From Paenibacillus sp. IHBB 10380 (GTDB lineage: Bacteria > Bacillota > Bacilli > Paenibacillales > Paenibacillaceae): a stretch of DNA of 64,000 bases. The stretch lies in the NCBI RefSeq assembly GCF_000949425.1, contig NZ_CP010976.1, forward strand, positions 1,240,001-1,304,000. The letters are read 5' to 3'. The notes under the pieces are model-generated. The model worked only from the letters and a program-made list of their open reading frames with translations, was not told the DNA's origin and ran no database searches. The stretch's first letter is position 1. Each line of letters opens with the position of its first letter. The position numbers and the translations under genes are program-made. Below are positions 13,111-15,968 of the stretch, piece after piece.

Positions 13111-13623
13111 GTGAAGAATAAAAAAAAATGGATTCTGCTTGGTATTGTTATTTTTCTGCTGATATTGTTTGGACTTTATAGATATTACATATATATCATT
13201 CAAGATCAACACAGTCAGGAAACGACCGCAATCACTGCTGCCAAAAAAAATACAGAGTTGGTGAAGGTGACTGATACACAGAAATCAGTGTGGGACACCA
13301 TCTCTTGGGTTATTGAAGGTAAGGATAAGGACCAGAGAGATCTCATGGTCTGGGTTCAATTTACTGAAGATAACAAGCTTGCATCGGGACTGAACGCAAT
13401 ACACAGCGAGCTGGTAGAGAACGGATTATCAGAAGAGCAAATACGATCCAAGATCATAAATGAAATACCGGGTATTGAGGAAATTAGGATTCAGCCTGGA
13501 ATGTATTATGGTGAATATGTATGGCAAGTGTACTACTTGGAGAAAGACCATTATTACTACCGTTTTTATAAGTTCAAAGACGGTTCACCTGTAGGAGATC
13601 GTTATACATTACCTAATCGATAA
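13111..13623 (+). CDS. tseB: cell wall elongation regulator TseB-like protein (YpmB family)
   Basis: A 170-residue membrane-anchored protein with a short basic N-terminus (KNKKK), one transmembrane segment (about residues 6-26) and an extracytoplasmic part of DUF5590/PepSY type. In B. subtilis TseB (YpmB) binds PBP2A and tunes cell-wall elongation. GTG 13111 is chosen for GAGAAAGGAAG about 8 bases upstream; earlier in-frame codons lie inside mtaD. The position after dinG and before asnS matches ypmB in Bacillus, which supports orthology. Confidence 0.82.
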   Translation: MKNKKKWILLGIVIFLLILFGLYRYYIYIIQDQHSQETTAITAAKKNTELVKVTDTQKSVWDTISWVIEGKDKDQRDLMVWVQFTEDNKLASGLNAIHSELVENGLSEEQIRSKIINEIPGIEEIRIQPGMYYGEYVWQVYYLEKDHYYYRFYKFKDGSPVGDRYTLPNR

Positions 13624-13651
13624 ATAAAGACTTTATTAAATATAAAAATAT

Positions 13652-13692
13652 AAAATGACCGAGAATCCTTTGTGGAATCTCGGTCATTTTAT
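13652..13692 (+). terminator. hairpin terminator after tseB
   Basis: AAAATGACCGAGA pairs with TCTCGGTCATTTT, a 13-bp stem with flanking A and T tracts, so it can work in both directions. Confidence 0.85.
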
Positions 13693-13905
13693 ATTGGTCG
13701 GATTGTATAGCTATGTGTGACCGGGTCTGACAATTCGACATTAATAAACAACAAATTTAAAATATAGCCACACATTACCTTCGAAAAAGGATATGCGATA
13801 TGATATACTTTATCGTAGATTTACTTGATAGATTATATGTACACGATTTGTATATCAATATTGAGAAATTAAATTTTTGTCTATATATGAAAGGAGAACG
13901 ACTAG

Positions 13906-14457
13906 TTGAAACCACGTGTAGTTCCTATACTTATTACTGTAGTCCTCTCTGGCGCCCTTTTATTTGGCGGTTGGTTTCTATACCGGCAAATGACTTTACA
14001 AAGTCCCCTCCACAATATGGTGACAAAATATGAGGGCGTAAATAGCGCTCAAATGGATATTACCAAAGATAAAATTGTTTTGAATCTTGATATTAAACCA
14101 AATACTCAGTTACCAGGACTTGTTCAACAACTAAAAACAGAAGGAAAGTCACTGGTTGGAAACCGTGTTTTACAGTTCGTTGTTGTTGATCATTCCTCTA
14201 ATACATTAAATGAATTCTGGGAGAAAGCGATGTTCTCTGTAGCTGAGGCTATGGAGAATAAACGTTATACAGATATACCCAAGAAACTAGAGGAACTGAC
14301 ACAAGCATCAGGTGATGTGAAAGTGACAACTGAAATGGACGATACGAACGTGTATGTGAATTTGATTAGTACGACGGATGCTAAGGCTAGTAAATTTATT
14401 ATTCTACCGCGTGATCCAGGTAAATTGGGGGTGTGGAACAATGCCAAGATGGACTAA
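13906..14457 (+). CDS. membrane-anchored extracytoplasmic protein, unknown function
   Basis: A 183-residue protein starting at TTG 13906 after AAAGGAG. Residues 6-26 form one transmembrane helix (ILITVVLSGALLFGGW); the rest should face outside. The external part alternates beta-like stretches and a helical section and has no motif I recognise. Its 3' end overlaps the next gene by 17 bp, so the two are translationally linked. The neighbour is an FtsH-like protease without FtsH's usual external domain, so this protein could be its detached outer partner. That role is inference. Confidence 0.75.
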   Translation: MKPRVVPILITVVLSGALLFGGWFLYRQMTLQSPLHNMVTKYEGVNSAQMDITKDKIVLNLDIKPNTQLPGLVQQLKTEGKSLVGNRVLQFVVVDHSSNTLNEFWEKAMFSVAEAMENKRYTDIPKKLEELTQASGDVKVTTEMDDTNVYVNLISTTDAKASKFIILPRDPGKLGVWNNAKMD

Positions 14458-15943
14458 AGAAGTTCTGATTGGATTTCTGCCTGTACTGATTATTTTCTTA
14501 GCCTTTATTGGTATCAATGTTGTTCCATTGCTGTTTGCAGCTATCTTGATCGGTGTTCTGCTGGTGGTCGCTAACAAGCGCGGAGGACTTGCAGTCGGTG
14601 CAGCAGCGGACCGTAAGCGGAAGAAGAATAGCATGAGCAAGCTTACCTTTGAAGAAATTGGGGGTCAAGACAATGCGAAGGAGGAGCTTCGAGAAGCTCT
14701 TGATTTTCTTAATCGATATGACGAGGTTCAGAAATTTGGGATTCGGCCATTGAAAGGTATTCTCCTCACAGGTCCGCCAGGAACAGGGAAGACGCTGATG
14801 GCAAAAGCGGCGAGTCAGTATACGGATTCGGTTTTCGTAGCTGCAGCCGGTAGTGAATTTGTTGAGATGTATGTTGGGGTCGGTGCAGGACGAGTTCGGG
14901 ATTTATTTCGGGATGCTCGGTCCCGCGCTGCTAAGGAGAATAAGAAAAGCGCCATAATATTTATAGATGAGATTGACGTCATTGGTGGTAAGCGTGAGGG
15001 TGGTCAGCAGCGAGAGTATGATCAGACTCTTAATCAATTATTAACTGAAATGGATGGTATCTATTCATCGGAAAGTCCACGGATTCTAATCATCGCAGCG
15101 ACGAATCGTAAGGAAATGCTAGACAGTGCCTTACTGCGACCAGGACGATTTGATCGGCATATTCAGGTTGATTTACCGGATAAAAAGGGAAGAAAACATA
15201 TTTTACAACTTCATGCCAAGAACAAGCCTATTACGGAGGCTCTTGATATGGATAAGATAGCGGAGGAATCCTATGGATTCTCTGGAGCACAGCTCGAAAG
15301 TGTAATGAATGAGGCTGCGATCTACATGATGCGTGAGCATAAACAGGAGATAGAGCAGCGGCATATTTCCATGGCCATTGATAAGGTGATGATGGGAGAA
15401 AAGACGGATCGAGAATCAACCTTAGAAGAGAAAAGAAGAGTTGCGATTCATGAGTTGGGACATGCCATTATGGCAGAGGTAGTTCGCCCAGGTAGTGTAA
15501 GTCAAGTGGCATTAAGTCCACGGGGACAAGCACTAGGTTATGTGCGTCATAACCCACAAGAAGAACAATATCTGTATACAAAGTCTTTCCTCGAAGAACA
15601 GATTATGATTGCTCTTGGAGGGGCCGCATCGGAGGAAATTTATTACGGTGGACGGAGTACAGGTTCGAGTAATGATTTCGAACAAGCATTGAATATTGTC
15701 CAAACGATGATGAAATCGGGTCTGACCTCACTAGGTATCGTAAACATAGAAATGGTGACGACAGAAGAACTGATGAGAGAGAATAATGTGATTCTGGAGG
15801 CGTTAATGTCTCGAACTCGAGATGTACTAGAACAGCATCGTAACGTATTTGATCAGTCGCTGGACATCTTACTTAGAGAAGAAACACTCTCTGGAAATCA
15901 ATTTCGTTGTCTATTTAGTGAATCTTCACTTTTACCAGCATAA
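14441..15943 (+). CDS. FtsH-like membrane AAA metalloprotease lacking the external domain
   Basis: A 500-residue FtsH relative. Residues 7-45 are one hydrophobic stretch that fits two transmembrane helices joined by only a few residues, where true FtsH has about 70 external residues. The AAA module is complete: Walker A GPPGTGKT (111-118), pore loop MYVGVG, Walker B IIFIDEID (172-179) and RPGRFDR arginine fingers. The protease site is complete: HELGH (337-341) and Asp412 in SSNDFEQA. It should degrade proteins at the membrane using ATP and zinc. ATG 14441 has GGGGGTG upstream. The main FtsH is presumably elsewhere. Confidence 0.88.
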   Translation: MPRWTKEVLIGFLPVLIIFLAFIGINVVPLLFAAILIGVLLVVANKRGGLAVGAAADRKRKKNSMSKLTFEEIGGQDNAKEELREALDFLNRYDEVQKFGIRPLKGILLTGPPGTGKTLMAKAASQYTDSVFVAAAGSEFVEMYVGVGAGRVRDLFRDARSRAAKENKKSAIIFIDEIDVIGGKREGGQQREYDQTLNQLLTEMDGIYSSESPRILIIAATNRKEMLDSALLRPGRFDRHIQVDLPDKKGRKHILQLHAKNKPITEALDMDKIAEESYGFSGAQLESVMNEAAIYMMREHKQEIEQRHISMAIDKVMMGEKTDRESTLEEKRRVAIHELGHAIMAEVVRPGSVSQVALSPRGQALGYVRHNPQEEQYLYTKSFLEEQIMIALGGAASEEIYYGGRSTGSSNDFEQALNIVQTMMKSGLTSLGIVNIEMVTTEELMRENNVILEALMSRTRDVLEQHRNVFDQSLDILLREETLSGNQFRCLFSESSLLPA

Positions 15944-15968
15944 AATATGATGCTGGTTATTTTTTTTT
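15935..15968 (+). terminator. terminator spanning the protease stop codon
   Basis: CCAGCAT and ATGCTGG form a short stem that includes the TAA stop and is followed by about nine Ts. Confidence 0.75.

Follow-up and report, generated by a model that had tools for sequence, protein, structure and literature searches.

A short FtsH-like protease and its neighbouring membrane protein point to a two-part protease of Bacillota

Can the outer domain of an FtsH-type protease be supplied by a separate protein? FtsH, the standard membrane quality-control protease, canonically carries an outer (periplasmic) domain of about 70–100 residues between its two membrane helices, TM1 and TM2. In a 64,000-nucleotide stretch of Paenibacillus sp. 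IHBB 10380 (NZ_CP010976.1, positions 1,240,001 to 1,304,000; hereafter the window), this domain is missing from a short FtsH-like protease, and the overlapping gene upstream encodes a single-helix membrane protein, here termed UP (Table 1). In an excerpt of PMC13097134, the FtsH outer domain is described as a hexameric alpha+beta assembly to which each subunit contributes two helices and five strands, and the way in which this domain and its partners admit substrates as still debated. The side-by-side genes, found in nearly all sampled Bacillota carriers, point to an undescribed two-part protease.

Table 1. Features of the UP–protease locus, in window coordinates
Feature	Coordinates	Strand	Basis or remark
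Long near-perfect hairpin in the gap between the TseB-like gene and UP	13650..13692	+	dG -25.9 kcal/mol, z -6.0, weak T run
Shine-Dalgarno-like AAAGGAG ahead of the UP TTG	13890..13896	+	sequence
UP gene	13906..14457	+	183 aa, TTG start; membrane protein with N-terminal helix and extracytoplasmic part
UP transmembrane segment, residues ~5-27; conserved L-F-G-G...Y motif at 19-26	13918..13986	+	membrane limits inferred
UP outer module 1, beta-beta-alpha-beta, residues 45-94	14038..14187	+	ring-building/KH-type fold likeness
UP outer module 2, two helices and three strands, residues 99-168	14200..14409	+	conserved L101, D145, Y150, P168
Short FtsH-like AAA zinc protease, 500 aa	14441..15943	+	ATG start within the UP 3' end
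UP/protease gene overlap, 17 nt	14441..14457	+	sequence
Membrane hairpin of the protease, helices 3-22 and 28-46, ~5-residue turn, without outer domain	14447..14578	+	AF2 model, hydropathy
AAA domain and lid, residues 107-310; pore motif YVG at 144-146	14759..15370	+	
M41 zinc protease domain	15422..15904	+	HELGH 15449-15463; third ligand Asp 15674-15676
Terminator-like hairpin and T run at the protease stop	15934..15957	+	dG -11.3, z -4.6

The two proteins and their genes

The original prediction, made from the letters alone, described a protease with complete AAA and zinc-protease sites and a link of only a few residues between its two membrane helices, preceded by a gene that overlaps it by 17 bp and encodes one membrane helix plus about 155 external residues. 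Each of these elements was recovered. The AAA, AAA lid, and M41 domains of the 500-aa protease lie above the Pfam cut-offs. Across 221 aligned relatives there is no variation at the Walker Lys, the Walker B Asp-Glu, Asp412, the zinc-motif residues H, E, and H, or the arginines in the second region of homology (SRH); slight variation occurs elsewhere in the motifs (Walker A P112 in 217/221, G340 in 219/221). The link between the helices measures about five residues in the AF2 model (pLDDT 79), the genes share the 17 nt from 14441 to 14457, and the UP model contains one helix (residues 5–40) followed by an outer alpha/beta region that ends at residue 168. Outside its membrane helix, UP has about 150 outer residues. 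All the features of the M41/FtsH-type superfamily are thus present, namely AAA plus M41, Walker A and B, the SRH arginines, HExxH, and a third zinc ligand. The PADLOC anti-phage models include none for UP, and the protease matches IetA/TRIP13 over its AAA part only.

The protease start at ATG 14441 is well anchored, with M1 aligned in 37 of 37 rows, and an alternative in-frame ATG at 14378 was rejected because nearly all of the 120 homologues among the matches listed are 500 aa long; also among the matches listed, the named close homologues are from Paenibacillus. Public names for the protease are mostly 'AAA family ATPase' and variants of 'FtsH', and for UP 'hypothetical protein', among the matches listed. 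Flanked by the hairpins at 13650–13692 and 15934–15957, UP and the protease have the appearance of a single small transcription unit. The first of these hairpins, absent from the output of the terminator search, is a possible upstream terminator or attenuator, and promoter-like matches are about as many as chance predicts (9 versus 7.2 expected). A TseB/YpmB-like gene lies 5' of UP at 13111–13623 (+); its product scores 39.3 bits with Pfam TseB (cut-off 26.5) and falls far short with NCBIfam TseB (42.8 of 200 bits).

The host genome (5.79 Mb) also encodes a canonical FtsH, at C1:4936335, which is 46% identical to the short protease. The short form scores 443.1 bits against the 600-bit cut-off of the FtsH equivalog (NCBIfam TIGR01241), and it differs from 90 canonical controls in several dimensions. 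In 79 of these controls the two helices lie 75–102 residues apart (in the other 11 the hydropathy rule did not call two helices), and the Walker A motif sits at a median position of 112 in the 221 short relatives versus about 200–230 in most canonical controls. In 217 of the 221 short relatives, Tyr serves as the pore aromatic, and the canonical pore motif is FVG in 76 controls and YVG in six, with no call in eight. From HExxH to the end, the median length is 164 residues in the short form versus 231 in the canonical one. In a tree of 138 rows, comprising 53 of the 221 short and 85 of the 90 canonical sequences from many phyla, all 53 short rows fall on one side of a single branch and all 85 canonical rows on the other, with a support of 100; the tree was made by a quick method and carries a warning for its long stem and long branches. 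In this tree the short protease forms its own deep clade, beside canonical FtsH and outside the canonical clade.

The outer part of UP offers fewer landmarks. Exactly one helix is called by hydropathy in 217 of 221 UP relatives, and the similarity of module 1 to ring-building (EscJ/FliF) and KH-type folds is loose and confined to the fold. A Foldseek search with UP returned nothing at E 0.001, and the FtsH outer domain is absent among the matches listed, which excludes nothing. The idea that UP may be the outer domain of FtsH (FtsH_ext) split off was examined by profile comparison with hhalign. The full UP profile matched the N-terminal part of canonical FtsH with a probability of 49% (P 1.7e-4; best of 20 controls 6.7e-4, reached via the helix), and the outer part of UP matched the canonical outer domain with a probability of 9% (P 0.0038; best of 20 control families 0.0043), so that the margin of the UP–FtsH match over the best control family is narrow. 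No SPFH/Band 7 domain was found in the window UP by Pfam at E 1. Two other affiliations were rejected. The top solved-structure match of the UP profile, a dextranase, has an E-value of 0.0015 and is not credible. A metal-binding HMA domain, the motif of which is CxxC, scores 12.2 of 24.8 bits in Pfam, and the window UP has no cysteine; weak HMA matches occur in 8 of 48 UP relatives (best E 0.0014), and two relatives (P0209 and P0214) are named heavy-metal-associated.

Occurrence and linkage of the pair

Protease matches at 1e-80, a threshold that also admits canonical FtsH, were found in all 197 genomes and all 19 genera of a family sample, with two matches in 196 genomes and three in one. The best E-value per row is 1.1e-182 or lower, versus about 1e-97 for canonical FtsH, so that all 197 genomes hold the short form. 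The presence of both forms in the same genome would allow the short protease to work alongside canonical FtsH or to enter mixed hexamers with it, UP serving the mixed complex. The deep split between the clades, the different pore motif, and the shorter C-terminus favour separate assemblies, however, and make such mixing very improbable.

If the protease were widespread without the upstream gene, the original prediction of a paired system would fail. This situation was looked for in the class and phylum samples and did not occur; the co-occurrence is near one-to-one. In the class sample, the protease is present in 195 of 398 genomes (threshold 1e-108) and UP in 196 of 398 (threshold 1e-6), and the two sets, compared by eye, differ by the single genome G496. 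In the phylum sample (n = 398; overlap of the sets likewise read by eye), the protease is present in 276 genomes and UP in 271, with both in 265, the protease only in 11, UP only in six, and neither in 116. All 11 protease-only genomes carry a diverged one-helix UP no more than 122 nt before the protease match, with UP-profile E-values of 4e-14 to 1e-5 in a single-sequence test. In the six UP-only genomes, the protease is cut by a contig end in four and split over two frames in one, and in the last, G767, about 5 kb of downstream sequence contain no short protease. Neither the class nor the phylum sample yielded a genome in which an intact short protease stands without UP, and no UP occurs in the 827 kb that make up the 90 canonical FtsH loci.

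We note that UP stands without a downstream short protease at two loci, L380 (G496) and L376 (G767). G496 has UP with canonical FtsH only, and the ORF in the expected place of the protease is aminotransferase-like as judged by reading its sequence. Both genomes are possible recent losses of the protease.

These distributions bear on an alternative in which UP is no structural subunit, and acts instead as a membrane-anchored inhibitor, a pseudo-substrate, or a substrate whose turnover by the protease signals. UP is encoded first, by a gene that overlaps that of the protease, and it evolves much faster, being 19–31% identical to the window protein in 22 other-Bacilli loci (one missed by BLAST) versus 54–64% for the protease; its survival on its own in G496 and G767 would likewise suit a harmless inhibitor. 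Loss of an inhibitor should, however, sometimes be tolerated, and the intact protease was never seen without UP in the class and phylum samples. The outer core of UP is moreover conserved among the 221 relatives (D145 in 95%, Y150 in 96%, and L101 in 93%). We regard an inhibitor or substrate role as unlikely, and a dedicated partner of the protease as the better description of UP.

The linkage of the two genes is tight. Of 123 loci, 121 have a UP-like ORF (140 aa or longer) whose end lies no more than 60 nt from the start of the protease; these represent 98 unique UP sequences, some genomes being counted twice. At L139 and L189, on one contig of G014, full-length frames are missing for both UP and the protease. 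Among the 98 unique pairs, 68 share 8 nt, an overlap that resembles translational coupling. In non-Bacilli loci, picked by their UP match, the short protease lies downstream in 40 of 40, within 132 nt in 39 and after a 3.4-kb insert in one. Long open frames in G893, G898, and G828 were considered as natural UP–FtsH fusions and rejected, as UP and the protease occupy separate frames there.

The pair stays together while its neighbours change. With neighbour clusters named from one member each or from the genes of the window, the same-family loci (n = 34) have TseB-like genes in 28, hbd in 32, and ackA in 25; the other-Bacilli loci (n = 24) have these in 12, seven, and six, respectively; and the non-Bacilli loci (n = 40) have rimO in 25, pgsA in 21, cinA in 27, and recA in 17. 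Members of the TseB-like cluster are present at 40 of the 58 Bacilli loci, for the most part directly upstream of UP, and asnS is also among the Bacilli neighbours. Genome G792 holds two copies (L374 and L375), each a complete UP–protease pair. As a clue to substrates, the proximity of pgsA and of the TseB-like gene is a hint only. Two further families recur beside the pair: one of about 225 aa (cluster c17, e.g., L170:3662-4327:+), which precedes UP in 10 of the 24 other-Bacilli loci and one member of which gave no Pfam or NCBIfam match at the thresholds used, and a 470-aa calcineurin-like phosphoesterase (L238:1478-2890:-), which follows the pair in 15 of the 40 non-Bacilli loci.

Couplings between the membrane helices

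Contact between the proteins was addressed by mean-field DCA on 221 unique pairs aligned side by side (Neff 159 at 80%). Eight of 248 protease loci gave no pair, comprising five canonical FtsH loci (L002 and L228–L231), L226, which begins inside the gene, L270, which carries an insert, and L279; of the 240 pairs obtained, those that were identical or had a protease shorter than 420 aa were removed. The seven strongest membrane couplings (UP–FtsH residues 15–12, 16–15, 11–12, 17–36, 23–23, 8–43, and 8–10) join positions whose depths differ by no more than 0.18 of the membrane, and they fit a UP helix that runs parallel to TM1 and antiparallel to TM2; the eighth, UP23–FtsH7, is depth-mismatched. 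The depth-matched minus mismatched score is 0.106, versus 0.017 +/- 0.029 in random re-pairings, none of which reached it in 500, and -0.047 in the flipped-depth control.

The mean depth difference of the top 10 couplings is 0.159 versus 0.324 +/- 0.071 (P 0.002), and by the same mean-distance measure the matching is not significant for the top 20 (P 0.16) or top 40 (P 0.11). Re-pairing inside three clades gave P values of 0.02 and 0.012. Single clades alone give a weak signal, and dropping one shifts the top-10 measure strongly, the depth difference rising to 0.367 without the non-Bacilli pairs. In full-length DCA, helix–helix pairs make up three of the top 20 and five of the top 50 inter-protein pairs (background 1.8%), and 11 of the top 20 join the outer part of UP to cytoplasmic FtsH. 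If the topology is right, these 11 are impossible as contacts, so that much of the full-length result is noise; the full-length analysis is underpowered, with a model too large for the data. Taken together, the couplings give moderate support to a direct contact of the UP helix with the hairpin of FtsH.

As this evidence is statistical and modest, the pair may also be viewed as a conserved operon without physical contact, its products working in one envelope pathway and linked by co-expression only; the hairpins before UP and after the protease, which mark an apparent small transcription unit, agree with that. Co-expression alone fits less well with a pair that is kept in different neighbourhoods and is present as two complete pairs in G792, or with helix couplings that are depth-matched and lose the match when depth is flipped. 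We consider an operon without contact to be quite improbable, and a complex of the two proteins to be the preferred explanation.

A probable two-subunit protease and its known counterparts

In sum, the proteins behave as one unit, as originally envisaged, in their co-occurrence, gene overlap, persistence as a pair in different neighbourhoods, and depth-matched helix couplings. Anatomy, catalytic residues, overlap, co-occurrence, co-inheritance, and the separate clade are matters of observation. The short FtsH and UP probably constitute a two-subunit, membrane-anchored, ATP-dependent zinc protease with UP as its dedicated partner, and the pair is most likely an obligate two-subunit protease. 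Short FtsH would be the catalytic machine inside the cell, held at the membrane by its tight helical hairpin, onto which the single helix of UP would pack, setting the alpha/beta domain on the outer face. UP could thereby take in trans the role of the built-in outer domain of canonical FtsH, and shape or simply stabilise the assembly, recruit, admit, or cap membrane substrates, or sense and relay a signal from outside, the last being the role originally proposed for it. For such a complex we infer the topology, a hexamer, its stoichiometry, its regulation, and membrane-protein substrates. A more elaborate picture, which we hold as tentative and rather doubtful, is a very old Bacillota protease class with the outer domain as a separate ring-forming subunit, in which several UP helices would ring the hairpins and the ring-building-like modules of UP would form an outer gate selective for membrane substrates.

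A phylum-wide paralogue with a separate outer protein would be a natural two-piece FtsH, in which the outer part could be removed, swapped, or titrated with the catalytic chain untouched. A likely partner is also now given to each of two protein families that are mostly named 'AAA family ATPase' and 'hypothetical protein'.

No description of the UP–protease pair was found in the open-access literature searched. An ftsH2 (CD3559) is named in Clostridium difficile in excerpts of PMC3408451 and PMC4028888. The FtsH–HflK/C and other SPFH complexes, as presented in an excerpt of PMC12048511, are like the pair in that a membrane partner with outer mass is joined to the protease. Unlike HflK/C, UP has no SPFH match in Pfam. 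HflK/C are also much larger than UP. In yeast, the FtsH-type i-AAA protease Yme1 is assisted by the membrane adaptor subunits Mgr1 and Mgr3, much as is proposed here for the short protease and UP; these are different proteins on the opposite side of the membrane. Proteins with a ring-building motif, such as EscJ/PrgK and FliF, resemble UP module 1 in fold only; SpoIIIAG is another protein with that motif. The closest counterpart is canonical FtsH, which has in common with the short protease the AAA, lid, and M41 domains, the zinc site, and the two N-terminal membrane helices, whereas the short protease is distinguished by the lack of an outer domain, its separate clade, the Tyr pore loop, a shorter C-terminus, and a linked partner gene.
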